From: Polytrichum commune
Taxonomy: Eukaryota > Streptophyta > Polytrichopsida > Polytrichales > Polytrichaceae
Reading direction: 5' to 3'
Assembly: GCA_950295325.1 (NCBI GenBank)
Contig: OX485809.1
Span: 9,116,001 to 9,180,000, forward strand
DNA length: 64,000 bases
The position numbers and the translations under genes are program-made. Positions 35,025 to 54,365 of the stretch are shown one piece after another. Below the pieces are notes generated by a model, which was not told where the DNA came from, ran no database searches, and saw only the letters and a list, made by a program, of their open reading frames with translations. Positions within the stretch are counted from its first letter, which is position 1; each line of letters begins with the position of its first letter.

Positions 35025-35235
35025 GAAACAGGGAGAACCAACCACTAGTTACAAATGAACCGGTTGGGTTTCAGAAATTGCGGTTGAAGTTCAAGACGTA
35101 AGGAAAATTACAGATCATTTTAGGGAATATATGGAATATACCTCTAATCAATAAAGAGAAACCGAAAGAGCACAACATGGAACCAGTTGGACTGGGAAAC
35201 ACTAGGATTTTGACCGATTACACCCAAGAATATCC
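35025..35235 (-). repeat. Dispersed repeat family D, inverted copy
   Basis: The minus strand is collinear with 46130-46345, including GATTTTCC-type, AACCGGTT, TTCAACCG and AAATCCTAGTGTTT words. Confidence 0.65.
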
Positions 35236-35497
35236 CTGGACACTGTATGTAGCTCAAGAATCACTACACTATACATTGTATCTAATGGAAAACCAGATTC
35301 AATTTATCGCAATCGATTAGTTAATATGTTAGTTAATCATATTCTTAAACACGGAAAAATACATTAGCTCATGAAATTTATTTCATGGAGCAATGAAAAA
35401 TATTAAGAAAGAACCAAAGAAATTGGTAATTCATGTCACTGGTAGTTATTATGATGCCATTTCTTAAGAATAAGATTATAAGTATTGTCATCCCAAC

Positions 35498-36171: not shown

Positions 36172-36615
36172 TTACTTTTCATTCATTTAAATATTGAAAC
36201 AAAGTTTGGTATATTTTGCATCCTAGCATTTCTATATAATCATTGTATTCGGTAATTGGAGACTTTCTGAAGATTTTGACTTTTTGAGGACGCAATTTTC
36301 AAATGTGGACCAATAATGACAACATAAGAATCCCATATATATAGTTTTGTATATAATTATCAGACATAAGTGCATGAAAGTGGAAACAAATATGAAGCAT
36401 ACATGAAAACATTTGCAAATGAAATGAGAAATTGATGCCGATGGAAAGGGAGTATGAGGAGAACGATTGCAAATTGAATCTATTCAATGGGCTTGAAATA
36501 CAAATATAATGGAAATACCATCAATGTCTTGAAGAAATTCAAATATAATAGAGAACCAAGCACTATGTTCTACCCCTACACACATTTACGTCTGAAGTAG
36601 ACGTTTCTAGTCCCA
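36172..36615. other. AT-rich spacer
   Basis: No gene recognised. A poly-T run at about 36618-36629 corresponds to the lysine codons at the end of the neighbouring minus-strand exon. Confidence 0.5.
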
Positions 36616-37517
36616 TTATTTTTTTTTTGCAGCTATGTCCTTCTTTTTGGCGGCCTCCATGGCTCTGAAAATCTCCGGCCCACGACTGTATCCTTGTTTG
36701 TTGACTGGACTGGAATATGTGTCGTTCTTCCATATTTCCGGACGCACTCCCGAGTTGTACGAGGTGGTATTGTAAGTAGAATACGAGGGCGTTTGCGAGA
36801 GGGAACGTCTTGTACTTCTCCGGAGGGCCAAACAACGATCGGACTCGGAAGATGTGGCCTTGAGGACGTGCCTTTCCAATGATGAAGTCGAGGAGGGTTG
36901 GCCACCAAGCGAGCGGAAAGCCACCTGCGAAACAACGCCATAGGGAGATAAGAATAAGAATGGAGTGGGGAAAATAATGAGGGCGGTTTGGGATGGGTGC
37001 TCGTAAACCTCCCGGCACGCGGAGACAAGAGGAAAGCAACGGTGAAAAGGGGTTTAAGGGACAAAGAAGGGCACCTTGGATTTGGTGACGTCAATACTGG
37101 GGACGATGGGCACGACGGGGGCATCAAGGAGAGCATGCGAATCCGGTAGAATTGCAGCACTGTTGAGTAAATTGGGGGAAGCATGGCAAGGAGGGCCAAC
37201 GATCGCGGACAAGATTGCGGGAGGAGGAACGGAGTCGACGGGGGAGGGTCGCACCGGGGAGCTTCCATGTGGAGACGCCGGCTCAGCCCACGATGAGCGA
37301 CGGCGTCGTCCCTCGAGGGCGACACATGCCCCAAACGAACGAGCGTTCACTTCTCTTTGGAGAGGGGGGAGGGCGACGGGGCGTACGCGCGGGCGACAAC
37401 CCTGGGGGGCGGGCTATTGACAACACCGTCGTCGATGTCGACGTCCCGGGAGTAGTCCACGGCTGAGGCTGCATCCACTGCCGAGAACTGATAGAGGGAG
37501 GGGATATGGGAATCCAT
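36616..37517 (-). pseudogene. Unknown two-exon gene with a frame break
   Basis: Exon 1 starts at ATG 37517 (MDSHIPSLYQF) and ends at AAG|GTGCCC (37075). Exon 2 begins after a strong pyrimidine tract and TTTCGCAG at 36925 and runs from 36924 to TAA at 36616, ending in a Lys-rich tail. The two exons join in phase 0. Within exon 1 the first frame hits TGA near 37348, and the second frame takes over (FGACVALEG onward). The break sits on a sequence resembling the locus palindrome (37332-37353). The protein is Pro/Ser/Arg-rich and I do not recognise it. Exon 1 is 443 nt, two more than a multiple of three, as an inserted 20-mer would cause. It could instead be unspliced non-coding DNA. Confidence 0.4.
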
Positions 37518-37679
37518 CACGTGGCGGGAAGGGGTTGAGGGGGGACGGGAAAGGCCGTCAAGGAGAGGGGTGTCACATAGGGGAGCAAACTATGCGCAAC
37601 AACAAAAAAAGACACCCAAGTATGGAGCAAGCATTAGATATGTAAATCACATGGACACAACCACATGCACGGAGATATT

Positions 37680-38447
37680 TCAAATGAGTTTATTAAATTT
37701 CGCGAGAATCATGATGCTCTTATATACATTATCGCGGGGGCTTAGTCCCGCATTGCCGATGGGATTGGACCTAACAAAAAAAGGGATGCTACCGGCGTGG
37801 AGCACAAGCCTTCTAAGGTAAGGCGTTAGCGTATGGACCAAAAATGTGTCGTTTCTATCACCGGTCCACGGGTCAAGGAAGATGACGTTGCCCAGGGGGT
37901 TCAAAACGCTCTTGGCGGGGTTGTCGTCGATGAGGAGGGTGTTCTCCGGAGTTGGCCACCACCCGTGGGGTACCCCCTGCAGCCGGGGGATGCCTCGCCA
38001 CAGTCTGGACTTGAGGACCTTGAGGAATTGTTGTCCTCCGCCTCGACCGCCGAACTTGGGAACCGGCAGACCCTTTTCGTCGAGTAATTCATTGTATTCC
38101 TCTTGGCCGAGGACGAAGCAAGGGCTCGGGAGATCACGGAAGAGGAAGTCGACGATGGGCTCCGTGTTCTCCATGACCATGGAGCTCCACACAATGACGT
38201 GAGCTAAGTCGAGCACCTCGCGAAGGAAATCCCGCAAGCCGGGACAGGTGCGGACAACCTTGCGGTTTATGAAGGTGTCGAGCTCGCTGTCATAATCCCT
38301 TTCGTCGAGGTGACGGAAGGGACGCGTGGGGACCTTTGGGATGTGTTTGGTGTGACACAACACCCCGTTGAGGTCAATAATGACGAACAGTTTGTTTCGG
38401 GTCTGAGGTACACTGGTCGAGGGGTTGCGACCTATCTCCGGGGGGTC
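37680..38447 (-). CDS. FCP1/SCP-like phosphatase domain, last exon (partial gene)
   Basis: The exon begins after an acceptor-like TTAATCACAG (38448-38457) and runs about 255 codons to a stop at 37680. FCP1-homology (HAD superfamily) motifs appear in order: a nucleophile loop LFVIIDLNGVL (motif I), VIVWSSM (motif II), a Lys-bearing central region, and LLIDDNPAKS (motif IV) followed by the usual NVIFLDPWTGD. These phosphatases act on phosphoserine or phosphothreonine, classically of the RNA polymerase II tail or other nuclear substrates. Motif I reads D-x-N rather than D-x-D, as in a plant subgroup I recall. If the second Asp is truly replaced, catalysis may be weak. Upstream exon(s) should lie beyond 38457 on the minus strand but were not found. 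The gene sits in the same GC-richer block as the palindromes. Confidence 0.7.
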   Translation of the reverse strand, partial: DPPEIGRNPSTSVPQTRNKLFVIIDLNGVLCHTKHIPKVPTRPFRHLDERDYDSELDTFINRKVVRTCPGLRDFLREVLDLAHVIVWSSMVMENTEPIVDFLFRDLPSPCFVLGQEEYNELLDEKGLPVPKFGGRGGGQQFLKVLKSRLWRGIPRLQGVPHGWWPTPENTLLIDDNPAKSVLNPLGNVIFLDPWTGDRNDTFLVHTLTPYLRRLVLHAGSIPFFVRSNPIGNAGLSPRDNVYKSIMILAKFNKLI

Positions 38448-38580
38448 CTGTGATTAACAATTCGACTAGTTTAATGCTATGATCCAATAAAGAATTTTGC
38501 ATCAAACATGAAGACGATGCAATATGGAAAAAGACGAAGGGCAAGAACAAGATTGTAAAGAGAATGTGCTGAAGGGTACA

Positions 38581-39209
38581 TTTGCGAACGCTCGTTCATG
38601 AATGAAGGCCAGAAATGGCGAGGTGCACAATTCACAAACGTTCGTTCGTGAAAGAAGGCCAACAGTGACCAGACGCATCATTCACGAACGTTCGTTTGTG
38701 AATGATCCTTATAGTATATTTACGAACGGGCGTTTGTGAAAGAGAGGGACACGGGGTCGCATCCTTTTACGAGCGTCCATTCGTAAACGAGGTAGAATTG
38801 CACAAGCAAGCGAAGCCACATGAACAAACACAATAAAAAGAATGCGAGACGACGCAAAGTGTGTGCAATTCGATGCAAAGCTCATTTCATTATATGAATT
38901 CCATGAAAATTTACAGTTTGTCTCAGATGATAATCTATCACACACGTTCCTAAGGCAACAGGATGCCATGTCCTACAAAACTGATCGACCTAAGGGAGTA
39001 CGCAAAAATGGGCTTTCAGAGGTCTTGGATGTCAATGCAGACAATGAGCCAAAAACACAACACAGGTGGTTAGAGATGTTACGAACGCGCGTTCGTCAAT
39101 GCATGTGGTATTCTCAAAGATGAGTTACATCGTCATCAGAGGGAGGGGCAGCGGCGTTGGAGCAAGCGGCAGCTCCCTCCTCAGCGATTAACGAACGCGT
39201 GTTCGTCAC
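38581..39209. repeat. Short palindromes, left cluster (7 copies)
   Basis: Copies at 38581-38602, 38631-38652, 38681-38702, 38719-38740, 38766-38787, 39078-39099 and 39188-39209. Each has a 10-base arm close to TTTACGAACG, two central bases, and the inverted arm close to CGTTCGTAAA. The central pairs are CT, TT, TT, GG, TC, CG and CG. Centre-to-centre distances in the first five are 50, 50, 38 and 47. The first spacers also share GAAGGCCA, so part of the cluster is a 50-bp tandem repeat. Confidence 0.92.
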
Positions 39210-39456
39210 CTCCACAATCGCAAGTGCCTTCGTCTCCATTAGATTGTCCGCACGCACTGCTTGAGACGTTTGGGTCTGTTGGATGTGCTCCGTGTCGTCG
39301 TCTTCGCCACCCAGGTCAATCCTCCCTGACCTCAGCCCTTCTGAAGGTGCCATCCCACTTTGAAAACATGGTCCTCTCCAGTCTCGTTGTCATCACACAA
39401 AATCTTGCCACGCCCTTGAATGTGACGTTCCTCTTCCTCTCCAAAAAGGAGATGTA

Positions 39457-41463
39457 TCACTGAAGCTCTTCAGGTTCAGTCTCTGTTTTTTTTGCTCTTT
39501 TGTTCCCCTTGAACTTCAGGACAACGACGTGGTCCTTCACCAGACTGCGCATTGAGTCACCGTTGATATTGTACATCACCTTGAACTCCTTCCATTTCGC
39601 CCAGTTGACATCGCCGTCGGCATGGAAGAGGTGCATCTTAAGCAAGAGTCCACTAATCTCTTGCATCGCAACGGTCTTCAGCTTCATGTGGTTGCACCAC
39701 TCTTTTATTGAGTACGTGCCGGGCTTGTGCTTTGGTCTCTTAAAAAATATCTTGGGATAAGGGATGGTCCTTCCCACGGTGTTCCCAAGAACGTGCACCG
39801 CACAACGCTGCAACTCTGACTCTGTCAGTCCTTGCAGGGCCCTGAAAATTTCCCTTAGTAGAGGCGGGGCTTCTATGCTCTTATCGTTACTGTACTTCTC
39901 TTCAATATCGGGGTTCACTAGATCGCCCAAGCTGTGAGCGTCGAAGAACTGGGTCCACAACTCCCAGGTGTCTCTGTTGCAGCAAATCAGACAGAGCTCA
40001 CCTTTGAGCTCCAGAATTGATTTGGTGCTCGTGGACTTCATGTCGATGGAGGAGAACTTGTCCACCATCGCATCATAGAACGCCTGCAATATACATACAA
40101 GGATGTCAGTGCTCAATATCAAATATGAACGCACGTTCGTAAATTGGCAACATTTCAAATTTTTGAATGCAACATATACTTTACAAACGCTCGTTCGTAA
40201 ACTCACCTTCCATTGTGGAGATTGGGTCTTCGCGTTCTCCCTCTCTTTTGGCAAGCATCCATGCGCGACCCACACGTCTCTGGCCGCCACTATACTCGCC
40301 GCCCACGAGGCCTCGAATGCCTTGATCTTGTTTCCGGAATTCAAAAATGAGGATATTTTCCGGAGCTTGTCCCAATCGTCAGACCACACCAAGAACGCCT
40401 TCCAGTAGTGTAAGTCCGCCTTGAGCTCATGCTGGAAGTTATCGTCCTTGAGGATGATTTGTGACGCCTCCAGACTGTGTTGTCCATCGATAATCCAAAA
40501 CTCTCCATTCTAGATTCAGGGCCAATCCTTCTCAGTAGGACTGGACAACAGGCCCTTCGGCATCACGCAGACAGTCTGCCTATCCCACTTCACGTTGTTC
40601 ATTAGGTTATTTATTTGCCACTTCACGCCCCCGCTCTCACGAGACCTAACCACCCACTTGTTGGGTGATTTCTCGCACTTGAAGCAGTCCACGTTGAAAG
40701 TGAAGTGGCGTCCCATGGGCCAGCAATCCTTCGAGTAGTTGTTGAAATCTCGCAAGATTTTTGTCGCTTTTGCAGCGTCCGGATTTTCTCCCTTCTTCAA
40801 AGGGGTTGGCATCACTGGCGACGAACTCACCTCAGTGCCCTCTGTCACTCCAGACTTCTCCATGTCGTCCCTCGACCTCTTGGATGGAGGGGACTGTCAG
40901 CTTGGCCCTACGGTCAACCTGCTCCCCAAAGGCACTGGCCTAGGAGCAATTCTGGAACCTCCTGCCCCTGAAGCCGATGGTTTTCCATGACTTTTCTTTC
41001 TTTTATTGGCCTCCGCGGCCACACTGTTGAACTTCGAAATATTCAAAGTGAAGGCGGTTAACTTCCTCGTTGTCGAGTGTTGGCTCAGGGCGTACTTGGT
41101 GAAAAGAGCATCCATGTTGAAATGTTTCGCATCGGAGGCGACATTATTGCTTGCATACACATAGGAGAATGGGTGCAAGAGGTAGTTCAAAAGGAGGTTG
41201 ATATGGTCTTTTTTGTTTTTTATATCTAGAATAACAAAGTCTCCTTGGGCCTCTACGGACTCTATCTCCCAATTCTTTGCCTGCACCCATTGATCTAGAT
41301 GGTCTGCCCTTGTTTGAATCTCATAAGTGAAACGCAACACAAATAACCCTTCTTCGGTCTTCGTAGGGATTGTTGTCCACTCCGCCATGACTTCCTCTTT
41401 TGGAACATAATTGTTGTTCCCATTGGTATCCGAAACACCTTCTGGAAGGCACTCCACAGGCAT
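39457..41463 (-). pseudogene. Broken gene with ParB-like DGQH motif
   Basis: One frame runs from ATG 41463 to the stop at 39457, interrupted by TGA (40897-40899), TGA (40516-40518) and TAG (40510-40512). A 123-bp intron with GTGAGT and TTGCAG borders (40084-40206) is a multiple of three and has no stop. The N-terminal third (41463-40900) is globular and ends in a basic KRKKSHGK stretch. A PPSKRSRDD nuclear-localisation-like segment follows the first stop. Then comes WPMGRHFTFNVDCF, and after the double stop FWIIDGQHSLEAS, which resembles the DGQHR/DGHHR box of ParB/sulfiredoxin-fold domains. The last 200 residues are alpha-rich and end in KGNKRAKKTE. I do not know the family. Low-copy or transposon-encoded origin is undecided. 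Palindromes flank it on both sides. Confidence 0.6.
40122..40201. repeat. Short palindromes in the intron (2 copies)
   Basis: Copies at 40122-40143 (central CA) and 40180-40201 (central CT) fill over a third of the 123-bp intron of the DGQH gene. The spacing is 58 bp. Confidence 0.9.
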
Positions 41464-41532
41464 TGGAACAAGTTGATGGCGTTTCTGCTTGCTTTAGCCA
41501 TATGCGTCATACCAAAGCAAATTAGAATTATT

Positions 41533-42007
41533 TTTACGAACGTTCATTCGTAAGCAACAGCGCTGCTAGGCAGACTAATGACATCATGGCGTTGTTGGAC
41601 ATACGAAGTTTTGTATGTGCTTTATGTATGTCAAGAAAAATTTGGCAGACTAATTTTCACATTGGTTCACATCTTTTACGAACGCGTGTTTGTAAATGCA
41701 GATGCCTTGTTAGTGGTATTTTTGTACATAACTTTACGAACGTGCGTTCGTAAAATCATGCTCTAAATTGGAACCTACTTGGTTAAATTTATTTCTTTAT
41801 GTGATTGGGTTAATTTAAATGTGATATGAATTACTGTATATACGAACGCTCGTTCGTATATATAGCCCTCCATTTTGATCACATTTTTACGAACGCACGT
41901 TCGTAAACATATAGTCTTGGGGTTTGTGCGTATCTTTACGGACGCGCGTTCGTAAAAAGAGGGTATATTATGCGTTGTACAGGTATTTACGAACGCTCGT
42001 TCGTAAA
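41533..42007. repeat. Short palindromes, right cluster (7 copies)
   Basis: Copies at 41533-41554, 41675-41696, 41733-41754, 41839-41860, 41886-41907, 41935-41956 and 41986-42007, with central pairs TT, CG, TG, CT, CA, CG and CT. The last four centres are 47, 49 and 51 bp apart. A degenerate copy (CATACGAA-GT-TTTGTATG) near 41600-41617 partly fills the largest gap. Confidence 0.92.
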
Positions 42008-42984
42008 TGAGCATGTTGTTTGTTTATATATATTATTATTATTACAGTGTCCGTACATATACGAATATGTATACAAGTATGGCAAGGGATTGCTTGTTGT
42101 GACTCAGCAATGCTTGCATTCGTGCCTGCAACTGTTGTTCAGAATGGTGAGATTGAAGAAAACAATAGAATCAAAACATATTATAGATTTGGAATGTGAT
42201 AAAGAATTCATAATGAATATCATAACTTAAATTGCAAAACACATGGCATTTAATAATGAACAAATTTATAATGTGAAGGAACTGAGTTGAGAAGGAATAT
42301 TGTGCTTACATTGAAATGTTGGACACCCAAAACATGTTCTTCCTCCCTTGTTAAAAACCCCAGCAAACCCCACAAAAGCAAAGTGATTTGAAAATCAAAT
42401 GCACCTTTGCACCACTGAAAGTGCCTTCACACTCTAAAGTTGTTGCACGCTATATACAAACCCTAACTAAGACTCTGATGTATATGCAACTCCCAATGTT
42501 GTATCTCTCCAATTGCTACTCTAAAACTTGCAATTATCAAGCTTCTAGCTTGAGTATCCTACTCTCAAGCTTCCAACTCTCAAGCTTTCAACTCTTCTAA
42601 CTCTTGAGTTCTCTACTCTAAAGGTGCAACTCTCAAGGGACTCTCAAGGAACTCTCAACACTTGCGCCTACAAAAGAAGTGCAACACACAAAACTAAATT
42701 TTGCAAGAGCTTCACCTCTGACCTTAAACCAACGCGGCGCTCCTCCTCTCTCTGCTCCAAATGAGAATGAGGAGATGAGAGGAAGGGGCGCGGGGAGGTA
42801 GCCCCACACCTCTAGGGTTTCCCCTCGGGCTGCCACATGGTCGCTTCCCATTGGGGAAGGAAGGTATTTTTTGTTGGGTCACCGTTCTCGATTTCATGGC
42901 AATTCAGGCACCAAGAAACCTAGGGAGGCTACATTCTAAGCCTCCGCAACACTCCCCACCATCATAGTGCCCTTGGCCGATGCA
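42008..42984. other. Spacer with CTCAAG-rich repeats
   Basis: Direct and inverted CTCAAG/CTTGAG words are dense at about 42541-42655. The segment 42700-42960 has a mixed GC-rich character resembling the leader or LTR of an element, but no matching partner was found. No gene recognised. Confidence 0.4.
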
Positions 42985-45134
42985 ATGCCCCACAAGACGA
43001 GGACATTGTCGTCAGGGGAGAAAGTTGTTCGAATGGTGTTGCCCACTGGCACAAAATGGAAGAACATCTTAATGGACATCAACAAAGTGGGTCGCAAAGC
43101 TGGATGTGGGTCCATTTCTTTGTCCAAGTTGAGTGTAATTAAAAACCAAAAGTTTGCGGAATACATTTTGAAGAGACCCGGGGACAAGTTTGCTAGATGT
43201 ACAGCATGTGAAAAATACAAAGATCTTCGAGACGCCCATCTTATAGGCACTGAGTCCTATACTAGACACCAAAGAAAATACATTGAGCATGTCAACAATC
43301 AGGAGGCACACCGTCATGATTACTACAAGAATCATGCACTATCCATAATGAGGCCCACGGAGGTCCTTACTATCATCCATGATAAAATTGACCATGCCAA
43401 AACCGCATGCCCTTGTTATGGACGCAAAATAAAGCCCACAGATGGTCTCTTCAAGTTGCCCATAGCTGTCACAGGTTCGTATGGAATCACAAATGTGTAT
43501 TGAAAGGATTTCCAATTTTTTGGGGTTTGTTTGTCAAATGTCCAATTTCATCCATCCGTTTAGTGGTTATCTCATATTTTTGTTGTTCACCCATCGTTTA
43601 TTTTTCTCATGTATGATCACCCACGGCCATGGGGACATTAAATATGCCCATTATGGTTTGGATTTCTACCCTGGCGATGCCAACCACATGGTTGGTTCAT
43701 TTGTAAAACTCTTGCGCGATCTTAAGAAGCCGCCGATGCACTCTTCCCATGCCATTTTTATGGTTGTGGAACGACACCCCTTTATGAAGCAGTGCTTCAA
43801 GGGAAAGAGGTTTGTATATCGTTATTGCCGGAACCATCTGGTGAATCCACATTCGGGAAACCATTGCTTCCAACTCTTCATGATCAACTTGATAATTGTG
43901 CTAAAGACAACAAATGTCGATACGTGTTTTGTTTTTGGTCATTGCTTGTGGCAAAAGGCATATTCAAAGAGGTATTTGTGTATTTCTTGATGGTGGGGCA
44001 CACACACGACGACATTAATGCGTTATTCGGACGTTGGAACATGAAGTTGCATGAAGAGAATTTTCCCATTATACCCTTTCTCATGAAATCATACATGGAT
44101 TTGGATAATGTGCATGTGATCCCGCACATGATTGAGGAAGTACCAAATTTCAAGGCCTTCATCAAGTCATACATGCTGAAGGGAGAGCACCATTTGGTGG
44201 GACACACGAAAACACAACAATTTCGCTTCTATATGAGGGATGATGGTATCCCCGCCATACAGTTCAAGCTTTTGTGCACATCTCCTAATTGGTGTCCAGA
44301 GGATGGTATGCTCATGTGGTGTCAGAACAATGATGAAAAATGTTTGCTCCCGGATGGGGATCCAAAGCCTTGCAAAGCCAACCCCATGAAGAATGGCCGG
44401 AAATCATAAAAGGCATATCCAGATTCATTGAATATTGGAAAGAGTTGTGTGAGGAAGACATCACCAAACGTGTTAGAGATACTTATGAACCGTTGATCAC
44501 GTATTGGGATCGCATTCGCTCGGCCTTGATAACACTTGGTGGCAACACACGAATGACTTTGATACAAAGATTTTGGCCACAAAGTCATTTCACGATTGTC
44601 GAGTCCGACACCATGTTCTTCGACAATGGAGAGGTCCGTGAAGAGTTTGCAATGGATGAGCATTACGTTGGTCCTGCGCGCAATCGGCCGGCACCGTCGT
44701 TTCGTATAGGTGTTGATTGTCATGAAGGTTATATGGTGCTCGTACGAGCAGGAGATGAGGAGCACCCCAAGCCAATTTGGTTGGTTAAAGCATTGTCTTC
44801 ACCCAATTTTGTCCGAATTAGCCCCAACTTTCGTCAAATTGAAGTGAAATATTGTTGTCCTAGCACCAAAGACCAGAACGTTCTCCGCATCCATTTAGGT
44901 TGGAACACCAAAAAGAATTTCAAGTGGACAGTGTACTCAATATATGGACCGGTTTGGATAAACACGGATACCATACTTTGTGCTTGGAAACCGCATAAGG
45001 GTTCTAAATCGGAAACAATAACCATCCCCCAAAAACATATAGATTTTGCCAAAGACAACTTGGCACATATTGTAGTTGCGGAAAATGAAGTCAAAAATGG
45101 ATATGAAGCGGAATATGGAGACAGGGAAACATAA
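42985..45134 (+). pseudogene. DUF7869-type transposon gene, frameshifted
   Basis: The order of motifs is that of the DUF7869 family found in many plant transposons: DKFARCTACEKYK (from about 43187), IIHDKIDHAKT (43372 on), ITHGHGD-x-x-YAHYGLDFYPGD (43617 on), HDQLDN (43882 on), YVFCFWSLLVAKGIF and FLMVGHTHDDINALFGRW (43987 on), then a less conserved acidic C-terminal part to the stop at 45134. The conserved Asp and His residues suggest a metal-dependent nuclease or transposase-like core, but function is not established. The reading frame changes near 43765 and near 44395, and about 150 bp at 43471-43616 interrupts the conserved sequence with no clean AG acceptor. The copy is therefore not translatable as one protein. 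Confidence 0.75.
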
Positions 45135-45711
45135 CATAAGTTGGAATTAATGGCTAAACATAGGGGGACTTTATAGACTTGGTATTATTGCAATTATTAT
45201 ATAATAAATATATAATATTCAAATTTATAAATACGTTTGGGATGCGCCATCCAATTCCATAAGACCCTTATATATGGGATGTGCACCTTAAACTTTATAA
45301 TGACATAATACTATTTGAATTTGGGATTCGATTGTTTTTTCCACGTGGAGTTTATGTTTATATTATGATATGAAGACTTACTATTTTTAGTAATTTGAAT
45401 ATTCTTCGCGGGCGAATTTGTAAACCGTCATGTTCCCAAAGTTTCATATGTTCACAATATTGGCATCCCAAACTATGGGCGTATTTTATTTTGAGACTTT
45501 CCAAAGTCTCCAATTAACGAATATAGTGTTTACAATGAAATGTTGTCATGGATTATTGAAATTTGGATGGGAAATCTCTTACTAATTGACAGCAATTGCA
45601 ATATTATGACTCTATAAGGCCCAAATCTTTTACAAATAATTCGACAAATAATGTTAGGTTTGCATTTGATGTTGGTGACACTACAAAGGTGGTTTACAAT
45701 TAGTACGGACA
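45135..45711. other. AT-rich spacer
   Basis: No gene or repeat recognised between the DUF7869 gene and the family-A MITE. Confidence 0.5.
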
Positions 45712-45940: not shown

Positions 45941-46129
45941 CACTTAGTATTAAGAAAGACCAATAAAATCGGTATCACTAAATACAATCTTTAGTGTACT
46001 GGGATCCAGTAGATTTAATGTCATATTTGGTTTTCAACTCTGTAACATTCTAAGCTTCCATTGATCAAGGGTATTGAATTTGGGACATTATGCCATGCCA
46101 GACACCAGAGTACTCCAGACCAGTGATCA

Positions 46130-46345
46130 AGGAGATTTTTGGGCATGATCAGTTGAGATCCTAGTGTTTGCAAGTCTAACCAGTTACATGTTGACATCCT
46201 TCAGTTTTCCTTGATTAAATTGGGGGATATTCTACAGATTCCTCTGAAATGATCGGTAATTTTCCTGCAGTCGTGAACTTCAACCGGTTATTTCTCAAAC
46301 TCAACCGGTTCATCTGTAACTAACTGCCGGCCGGTTCTCCCCGAT
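46130..46345 (+). repeat. Dispersed repeat family D, longest copy
   Basis: Collinear with 16990-17110 and with the minus strand of 35025-35235. It contains two AACCGGTT palindromes and a GCCGGCCGG word. Confidence 0.65.
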
Positions 46346-52425: not shown

Positions 52426-53756
52426 TATTTAGGTAGCAAATAGGCACTTTGTTGGGTCATTGGTGGTTTGGGGGTTGTCCTTGGTTGGGTAGTTTGATGG
52501 GGTCCGGATCTCTTTGTTTACTCTTTACATGGCAGTGTGGTGCATCCGAGGGGCTCCACCTCCCCTAGATGTGGCATGTCTTACTTGGTTCTTAATACAT
52601 TAAGGCATTGGTTTTTTGGCCTTCTATCTCAAACACAACAAAACATTAAACATAGAAGATATTTTCAAATCACACCTTTGTTTCATCATATCTTTGAGAA
52701 AATATGTAATACGGTACTCACATGAGTCTTTGATAAGCTCACATGAAATATGAATTTAAGGTCGACAGCCATGGTTTGGTTGGGATTTGGTTATTTTTCT
52801 TATTAGGACGCCTATATTTGAGTGGTATGTGGTTTTGTGTGGCTCTAAGAATGGACACCAAAAGACATGTGTTTGAAAGAAGTTGGGTTGCATGCTCAAA
52901 ATATGTTAATTATCCTAGGTTCAATACTTAACATAAATGGGGGGCCCTATATAATCGTTAATATTATTCATACAAGCTCCAAAATTTATAAGGAAAGTGG
53001 CTACAACCTTGACTTGGATTTGCTAACCATCTTGCACTAATCGTATGTTTTATATCCTAGGAAAAGTGAGCTAGTTGAAGAAAAACACACACAAATTGAA
53101 GATCCACCTACCTTAAGGGTCTCCATTGTCAAATGTTGAGCACACACATATTTGCTAATTCAAGTGCAAAATCAAGCAATGAAATGAAATTGATTTTCAA
53201 CTCTACAAAGCCAAAAAGGCTTCAATGGGACTAAATGTAATACATCAAGATAGTGATAAGAAGATTGATAGTGATGGAGTGTAGTGGCCGCCATGAGATA
53301 AAAGCTAATATTGACTTGGTGGTCAAAGTGGAAGAAAAACTCGAGACTACCTAGTTATGAGCCCAAAATGGTTGCTCATATTTGTTTTATGTTTAGAATT
53401 TACTTAGAATTGCACTTGAAGTTGCTATTAAAACAATTAAAAGTATTAAAAAGAGTGAGGCTTGGTGTGGAGTTATGTTTTAGGCCTTAAGCTTTTTTTG
53501 TGGTTAATTAGAAGCTTAGTGGCATTAGGGAGTGTTTTGGTTAGGGGAGTAGTGTTTGATGAGGCAAGGGGAAGGGCCTTGGGTTTAAACGTTTGATTTA
53601 GGACATGTTTGTGTTGGTTTAGGGGGTGAGAGTTTAGGGGATAAGATAAGGTCCTACTAAGTAGGGAGAAGGTGAGGGGTTAAGCCCTCTTAGTTTTTGT
53701 GTGTTCTCTCTCTTCTTTGGGTGTGGAGCGAAGGAGGAGCTCGAGGAGCTCAAGGT
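52426..53756. other. Anonymous AT-rich DNA
   Basis: No gene recognised. The stretch 53460-53750 becomes GT-rich and precedes the minisatellite. Confidence 0.5.
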
Positions 53757-54365
53757 GGAGCTACTGATTCTTTTGAGCTAGCTGGAATGGCGTCGGCCAA
53801 GGGCCTGATTCAAGGGGAGCTACTGATTCTTTTGAGCTAGCTGGAATGGCCTGATTCAATCTGGCTAAGGGTTTGAGCTAGCTGGAATGGCTGTCGGCCA
53901 AGGGCCTGATTCAAGGGGAGCTACTGATTCTTTTGAGCTAGCTGGAATGGCCTGATTCAATCTGGCTAAGGGTTCGAGCTAGCTGGAATGGCCGTCGGCC
54001 AAGGGCTTGATTCAAGGGGAGCTACTGATTCTTTTGAGCTAGCTGGAATGGCTTCGGCCAAGGGCCTGATTCAATCTAGCTAAGGGTTCGAGCTAGCTGG
54101 AATGGCCGTCGGCCAAGGGCCTGATTCAAGGTGGAGCTACTGATTCTTTCGAGCTAACTGGAATGGTCGTCGGCCAAGGGCCTGATTCAAGGTGGAGCTA
54201 CTGATTCTGTTGAGCTAGCTGGAATGGCTTCGGTCAAGGGCCTGATTCAAGGTGGAGCTACTGATTCTGTTGAGCAAGCTAGAATGGCCTTCGGTCAAGG
54301 GCATGATTCAAGGTGGAGCTACTGATTCTTTTGGGTAAGCTTGAGTGGCCTTCGGCCAAGGGGGT
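53757..54365 (+). repeat. Higher-order minisatellite
   Basis: The recurring core is GAGCTAGCTGGAATGGC, starting at about 53775, 53834, 53875, 53935, 53976 and on. Long units of about 60 bp (adding the GTCGGCCAAGGGCCTGATTC and GGAGCTACTGATTC parts) alternate with short units of about 41 bp (adding CAATCTGGCTAAGGGTT), giving a repeat of about 101 bp in the left half. The right half is simple long units with more substitutions. Confidence 0.9.

Follow-up and report, generated by a model that had tools for sequence, protein, structure and literature searches.

Among described systems, parS sites are palindromic, and transposons of the CACTA and hAT types carry subterminal repeats. A further system is found in the VANDAL transposons, where VANC proteins bind short noncoding motifs of the elements that are often arranged in tandem and differ between related elements, and a loss of methylation follows (PMC5735166, PMC10398659). 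The motif of VANC21 is reported there as the 9-base YAGTATTAY. Transposons of the Sola superfamily are described as having 4-bp target duplications, lengths of up to more than 15 kb and a transposase of the DDD type, and they have been reported from the moss Physcomitrella (PMC10741241, PMC3627910). Here, we analyse a window of 64 kb from the moss Polytrichum commune (contig OX485809.1, C7:9116001-9180000, in a genome of 407.8 Mb and 64 contigs), in which a cluster of palindromes accompanies a gene with a DGQH box. Judged by homology to full-length copies, the palindromes of the window lie within a DNA transposon, now decayed and 9.3 kb long. We propose that they would be sites bound by the transposon's own DGQH protein and would serve a family-specific self-recognition, most likely against silencing. 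We infer both the binding and the anti-silencing, and we give this reading chances that fall just short of even.

The palindrome in the window, which defines family A, is TTTACGAACG-NN-CGTTCGTAAA. It has 15 matches with at most three mismatches, all of them inside positions 38581-42007, and 16 matches in the same region with at most four mismatches, the sixteenth being at 39188. No matches with up to three mismatches occurred in 100 dinucleotide-preserving shuffles of the window, and five mononucleotide shuffles yielded none at up to four mismatches, 2 at five and 11 at six. The rest of the window contains no family A palindrome with up to five mismatches and one with six (34722). The 16 clustered palindromes noticed in a first-pass annotation of this DNA are thus borne out; a doubtful further copy that it placed at 37332 is absent from the matches with up to six mismatches.

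Across the genome, the family A palindrome has 7,916 matches with at most two mismatches compared to a single match for its reversed control, and DGQH boxes number 434 (205 and 229 by strand, at most three mismatches) compared to 0 for the control; such genome-wide gene counts are lower bounds. This corresponds to about 18 palindromes per DGQH box, which is of the same order as the number per element. All 12 fetched family A loci (L001-L008, L019-L022), which were picked by their DGQH match and include several near-identical copies, carry 11-22 palindromes with up to three mismatches. Among the matches listed for C1, a DGQH box is found no more than 16 kb away from five of eight palindrome clusters (2e-8 if independent); three of these five are neighbours, about 50 kb apart at most. 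The first-pass annotation had suggested that clusters and gene might belong together; at the other loci fetched they do co-occur, but some clusters lack a DGQH gene (L030, see below).

A full family A copy of about 16 kb contains, in window orientation, the gene of a NIF-type phosphatase (minus strand), the DGQH gene (minus strand) with three inferred exons, a central region and the DUF7869 gene (plus strand). Splice sites were inferred from reading frames and GTGAGT...AG borders. The full copy on C5 has 30 sites with at most four mismatches. Of these, 23 sit upstream of a gene, with 10 at DUF7869, 9 before the start of DGQH and 4 at NIF; the two introns hold 4, DGQH exon 3 holds 2, and one follows closely after the DGQH stop. 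Marked exons make up 8,222 of the 16,105 bp of this copy, and the scarcity of sites in them has a binomial probability of 3e-7 when sites are taken as independent. Similarly, in the related family B described below, none of 39 sites falls in marked exons, which cover about 40% of the element. In the window copy, five palindromes lie upstream of the NIF gene (38581-38787), seven upstream of the DGQH gene (41533-42007) and two in its inferred intron 1 (40122-40201), where the 5' splice site GTGAGT is immediately next to the site at 40180-40201. For the remaining two (39078-39209), alignment to full copies places 39188 inside DGQH exon 3 and 39078 directly after the stop. In the C1:68.34 Mb copy, 2.4 and 3.8 kb separate the outermost palindromes from the ends; family B has none within 3.8 kb of its right end but four near the left one, at 0.26-0.9 kb. 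Since the sites sit mostly upstream of genes and in introns, the palindromes are not mainly end motifs, and the likeness to CACTA or hAT subterminal motifs considered in the first-pass annotation is not upheld.

Stretches around 14 DUF7869 matches (L015-L018, L031-L040), picked by that match, were read for related elements. Ten of these loci contain an array of palindromes that again have a 2-nucleotide centre, in different letters. We distinguish family B with GTTTGGGTCG (L018, L035), family C with CCCACGGGTG (L017, L037, L039; variant CCCACGGGCG in L038), family D with GGTGAGGCA-NN-TGCCTCACC (L015, L016, L031) and a sister family A' with TTTACGGACG (L036). Counted genome-wide with 9-base arms and at most two mismatches, the palindromes of B, C and D have 13,499, 1,502 and 1,129 matches compared to 1, 6 and 0 for the reversed controls. 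All four main palindromes have a 2-bp centre, with arms of 10 bp in A and B, 10 bp with a weaker outer base in C and 9 bp in D, and conservation drops just outside the arms in A, B and C. The centre is biased in family D (T 79%, A 92%), unlike the centres of A and B. Among the tabulated loci, none of one main family carries the palindrome of another at up to three mismatches inside its element; four B sites in L011, the left flank of the C1 copy, stand beside a B-type NIF gene (92%) and belong to a neighbouring B fragment. A DGQH-type protein is found in each family, with the boxes WLIDGQHSVEA in B (L023), HVVNGQHTLAA in C (L029, picked, like L030, by its palindrome) and EPVDGQHVEHA in D (L015). 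In BLASTP, E-values between these proteins reach 1e-95 for A-B, about 1e-8 for A-C, 3e-4 to 8e-4 for A-D and 0.01 for C-D. Family B has the same layout as A, including NIF and DUF7869, and family C also has NIF; in family D, NIF was not seen among the three open reading frames (ORFs) tested. As read from these loci, related families keep much of the layout yet use entirely different palindromes.

The divergence between families points to the protein that reads the palindrome. Between A and B, identity is 35-38% for DGQH, 43-46% for NIF and 58-82% for DUF7869, and the two families share the end sequence AACACTATATTCG but not the palindrome. Because DGQH diverges most while the end sequence is shared, the DGQH protein is likely the reader, being the best candidate among the element's proteins. 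Furthermore, each of the families A, B and C has its own palindrome in the intron that follows exon 1 at the aligned position (after the aligned W-K/E). Of 17 sites in the sister family A', 14 differ from A by a single mirrored base pair, altered in both arms, compared to 0 of 65 sites in L002, L006, L008 and L019; the DGQH exon 1 of A' has 39.5-42% identity to A and 32% identity to B. Within family A, DGQH proteins are 74-84% identical and synonymous differences are near saturation (synonymous divergence, dS, from 1.2 upward, with one comparison beyond correction), and the palindrome is unchanged. The DGQH exons within this family are under purifying selection, with a ratio of nonsynonymous to synonymous divergence (dN/dS) of 0.07-0.13. 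Repeat units change in length from array to array within one element (those in B measure 36, 57 and 78 bp, among others), and thus it is the palindrome, not the repeat unit, that is conserved. The connection between protein and palindrome, which the first-pass annotation had drawn from position only, now includes their co-divergence between families.

Structure models give weak but specific support for a ParB/sulfiredoxin fold of the DGQH protein. When the whole model was compared to 350,542 PDB chains with Foldseek, the first two matches were ParB (probability 0.96 and 0.97, E 0.18 and 0.19). For the DGQH domain model, with a predicted local distance difference test (pLDDT) score of 54, the first Foldseek matches were the ParB-like PadC and Noc at non-significant E-values of 0.94 and 1.6, and the first 14 rows of a VIA comparison were all SbnI, sulfiredoxin, Noc, PadC or ParB (Z 2.8-3.9, unrelated rows 2.1-2.6). 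In PHROGs, the DGQH protein of family C weakly matches the ParB-like phrog_1033 (E 0.14). The guess of this fold in the first-pass annotation gets this weak support from the models; profile searches in Pfam and NCBIfam gave no significant match. The arginine of ParB box II is absent, with GQHS, GQHT or GQHV in families A-D and the deviating boxes DGKH in L003 and DEQH in L016. Mutation of this arginine abolished nucleotide binding in the proteins tested in PMC12704722, and a ParB-like clamping with cytidine triphosphate (CTP) therefore appears doubtful for the DGQH protein. Pfam detects no helix-turn-helix (HTH) domain in the protein. The DNA-marking system that had been suggested earlier finds no support, as Pfam, NCBIfam and PHROGs yield no modification enzyme among the DGQH pieces tested. 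No relatives were found in viral contigs with exon 2 of one copy as query, nor in phages with the family C domain as query.

Of two further candidate functions, one is no more than a lead and the other was rejected. By eye, the spliced ELR...GETVYNVFGGSKFMYAAM resembles motif I of N4/N6 methyltransferases, as if the C-terminal half were a degenerate DNA methyltransferase, but significance was not reached: hhalign against E. coli YhdJ finds the motif I register at a non-significant P of 0.11 (A4) and 0.22 (A1), with 0.43 for the unrelated DusB, and the C-terminal half has no match in Pfam, PHROGs or PDB. A phosphorothioate (Dnd-like) marking was considered because GAAC/GTTC, which is reported as the Salmonella phosphorothioate context (PMC4507180), occurs in the A palindrome. 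We take this as coincidence since the palindromes of B, C and D lack it.

In the mechanism that we propose, a dimer of the ParB/sulfiredoxin-fold DGQH protein would bind the two-fold symmetric palindrome, and the many clustered sites would provide specificity and high local occupancy. Binding would mark the element's own promoters and introns. Most likely, by analogy to VANC for VANDAL, it would oppose the silencing of its own family only, by DNA methylation or chromatin, so that the element's own promoters would stay active against DNA methylation; we are less sure of this step than of the binding. The family A palindrome contains four CpGs, and therefore binding could be sensitive to methylation or the sites could be methylation targets. 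A methylating host is plausible because C5-DNA-methylase domains are present in the genome, where many of the scored matches look like a repeat family. Separately, 123 matches to PF00145 were scored of 353 candidates genome-wide, several of them in open frames of exactly 1,386 amino acids, which look like a mobile family carrying a methylase domain. Extended further, the proposal describes a transposon lineage with its own ParB-fold reader and a private palindrome that would have been re-coded repeatedly by symmetric changes, each family recognising no DNA in the nucleus but its own and shielding it from silencing. Sequence-specific anti-silencing would then have been invented twice and independently, here with a fold of the nucleotide-binding type as reader in place of VANC; we consider this extension possible, although we doubt it more than we believe it.

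Several observations weigh against the proposal that the DGQH protein reads the palindromes for self-recognition. NIF also diverges between A and B (43-46%), and DGQH is therefore only the likeliest reader. The elements are mosaic: the A-B identity of DUF7869 differs between parts of the protein (58% and 82%), and two A copies with near-saturated dS in DGQH have a dS of 0.44 in NIF. Motifs could thus spread, and the comparison of divergence be distorted, through exchange, gene conversion and tandem duplication, and unequal exchange may explain part of the contrast between DGQH and the other genes. Symmetric changes among single sites are not clearly enriched (A 3 of 11 with a shuffle mean of 0.8, D 0 of 5). 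At four of the 14 DUF7869-chosen loci (L032, L033, L034, L040), no array was present in the 1.2-2 kb read at guessed offsets. In addition, L030 (C1:640501-646500) contains 39 A palindromes in 6 kb, in two dense arrays about 3 kb apart, and in tblastn none of 22 tested pieces of element proteins shows similarity to this locus; this is probably a non-autonomous or relic copy. Likewise, DUF7869 and C sites are present in the family C copy at C2:4.16-4.18 Mb, but tblastn finds nothing similar to DGQH or NIF in the 9.5 kb upstream. Such copies would need the DGQH protein in trans. As to the fold, the whole AlphaFold2 model (925 amino acids, 11 alignment rows) is of low confidence, with a mean pLDDT of 41 and 47-73 in the DGQH core blocks, its two ParB matches superpose poorly (root-mean-square deviation about 13 Å), no Foldseek E-value for the DGQH models is significant, and the DGQH pieces match nothing significantly by sequence in Pfam, NCBIfam or PDB.

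Other explanations differ in what would bind the palindromes and to which end. The DGQH protein could bind them as an ordinary repressor or activator that controls copy number, with no role in chromatin silencing. Such plain autoregulation fits the 23 of 30 sites of a full A copy that lie upstream of the DUF7869, DGQH and NIF genes, and has a precedent in DndB, which is reported to be an adenosine triphosphate (ATP)-dependent repressor of its own operon (PMC12704722). However, 30-39 sites per full element and the additional intron sites seem more than an operator needs, and we regard this account as unlikely. The ParB-fold signal in the models and the clustered, symmetric sites would also suit parS-like loading of a clamp that spreads along or clusters the element's DNA for tethering, partition or shielding. 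This we consider distinctly unlikely given that GQHS, GQHT or GQHV boxes lack the arginine whose mutation abolished nucleotide binding elsewhere (PMC12704722).

If the DUF7869 transposase instead of the DGQH protein bound the palindromes, they could be internal assembly or enhancer sites. In copies read over their full length, the genes of both proteins accompany the arrays, and in one family C copy DUF7869 and palindromes are present while the 9.5 kb upstream show no similarity to DGQH. Yet the end sequence and most of DUF7869 are common to A and B, which differ in the palindrome, and the palindromes are not clustered at both ends, which makes binding by DUF7869 scarcely probable. It is most improbable that no protein is involved and that a sequence palindromic by chance expanded neutrally like a satellite: many arrays are indeed tandem, with units of about 34-94 bp, and some clusters lack genes (L030), but unit lengths vary among arrays of one element while the palindrome is constant, the four different palindromes are all 2-bp-centred, the change in A' is mirrored, and the palindrome is unchanged at near-saturated dS.

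The three genes are preserved to different degrees in the window. The NIF/FCP1-like phosphatase gene (PF03031) lies at 37680-38363 on the minus strand (Pfam E 2.3e-11, 44.1 bits with a cut-off of 21.8). Where HAD phosphatases usually carry DxDx, the NIF-type protein of families A, B and C has DLNG or DVNG (L006:8199-8981, L023:2208-3050, L029:4576-5397), and it may therefore be catalytically weak or a binding module. The DGQH gene at 39316-41463 on the minus strand, aligned to other copies (alignment A1), retains exon 1, intron 1 and part of exon 2 in a broken frame, with the DGQH codons at 40477-40488. Its box reads DWP*I*NGEFWIIDGQHS, with two stops directly before the box, and the 3' part of the gene is gone through deletion. 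Where the first-pass annotation reported a gene with a DGQH box (39457-41463; minus strand), the box is present, but the gene is a broken multi-exon gene and not intact. The DUF7869 gene (PF25273) occupies 42873-45134 on the plus strand in several broken frames (Pfam E 1e-30 for 43792-44409), and is a single frame of 1,060 amino acids in the C4:40.15 Mb copy (PF25273 E 1e-39). Its aspartates are conserved in four families (IHDKMD/IIDGMD, QxDNC, GHTHxDxD), and the protein is thus probably the transposase; our literature search found no mention of DUF7869.

The mobility of the locus, suggested in the first-pass annotation, is supported by terminal inverted repeats and 4-bp target duplications that bound the element. 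The window copy, decayed and internally deleted, spans 36239-45530, where homology to full-length copies stops. Its left terminal inverted repeat (36239-36270, plus strand) is decayed to ATCATTGTATTCGG in place of AACACTATATTCGG, and the right one (45495-45530, minus strand) reads AACACTATATTCGTTAATTGGAGACTTT on the minus strand. The target-site duplications are TATA on the left (36235-36238) and TACA on the right (45531-45534), matching in three of four bases. A deletion of about 2.0 kb with its junction at 39286-39316 (L002 2577 to 4608 missing) removed the rest of exon 2, intron 2 and most of exon 3 of the DGQH gene. A second deletion of about 4.3 kb with its junction at 42864-42873 (E4 18214 joins 22503) removed the central region, a third array and the start of the DUF7869 gene. 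With its TATA/TACA duplication, two deletions and broken frames, the window copy is older than the full family A copies.

A protein search of the genome gave at least 128 matches (127 scored of 1,505 first-look candidates). Full family A copies are C1:68340583-68356718 (16.1 kb), C5:44632885-44648988 (16.1 kb) and C4:40149079-40164675 (15.6 kb), of which the C1 and C5 copies are about 99% identical to each other. All three start with AACACTATATTCG and finish with its inverted copy, and perfect 4-bp duplications (CACT, ACAT, CAAA) flank them. The family B copy C6:30338707-30354968 has the ends AACACTATATTCGTTAAATT and TTAA duplications, and the family D copy C6:41938811-41949818 has the ends AACACCGGTTTCGTTAAAAG and TTCC duplications; in each, the two 20-bp ends match perfectly, and equality of the 4-bp duplication was a criterion of the end search for these two families. 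In total, a 4-bp target duplication is present in five of five fully bounded copies (ACAT, CACT, CAAA, TTAA, TTCC). The ends of the family C element were not found.

In the surroundings of the window copy, inverted copies (77%) of one repeat at 35046-35245 and 46121-46322 bracket the transposon 0.6-1.0 kb on either side, and a related repeat also occurs 1.8 kb past the right end of the C1:68.34 Mb copy. A tandem array with several overlapping self-matches (78-89%) is located at 53750-54362. Elsewhere in the genome, the light-harvesting family PF00504 has 58 matches, as befits a photosynthetic host, and 14 equally scoring light-harvesting protein genes are clustered within 95 kb at C5:1751760-1846160.

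VANC is the one sequence-specific transposon anti-silencing system that we found in the literature. If our proposal is true, the logic of VANC would recur in an unrelated transposon group, pointing to private address codes as a general route by which mobile elements escape silencing while their rivals stay repressed. The several natural pairs of protein and palindrome, one of which has a sister pair only a single mirrored base change away, would then form a ready set for studying how reader specificity changes, and could possibly serve as new orthogonal DNA-binding modules. Among the literature matches listed, which also covered moss and Sola and were judged by title and start of abstract, we found no transposon-encoded ParB-like palindrome reader.

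When comparing the elements to known systems, we find partial likeness to each. As in CACTA and hAT transposons, short motifs are repeated within a DNA transposon; here, however, most sites lie in the interior of the element, either upstream of genes or within introns, and the target duplication is 4 bp. With the ParB/sulfiredoxin superfamily, including DndB/DGQHR (PMC12704722, PMC4507180), the DGQH protein would share the predicted core topology, the (D/N)GQH box at the position of ParB box II and palindromic sites, but it has no arginine after GQH, no HTH by Pfam, and is encoded by a transposon of a photosynthetic eukaryote. Sola elements are alike in the 4-bp target duplication and in size, whereas palindromes and a DGQH gene are not mentioned in the parts of the Sola accounts cited here (PMC10741241, PMC3627910); the likeness of the DUF7869 elements, whose transposase candidate has aspartates conserved in four families, to Sola is one of description. 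To VANDAL and VANC, the likeness lies in an element-encoded protein and in a short motif that is repeated in noncoding regions, often in tandem, and differs between related families: the present elements also have family-specific motif arrays, mainly in noncoding DNA, that diverge between related elements. The components differ, as VANDALs are Mutator-like with target duplications of 7-12 bp, whereas these are DUF7869 elements with duplications of 4 bp, and the 9-base VANC motif contrasts with a palindrome of about 20-22 bp and a protein with a ParB/sulfiredoxin-like signal. Loss of methylation has been reported for VANC and would have a counterpart in the anti-silencing proposed here. By analogy, the present elements match the logic of VANC with unrelated parts.

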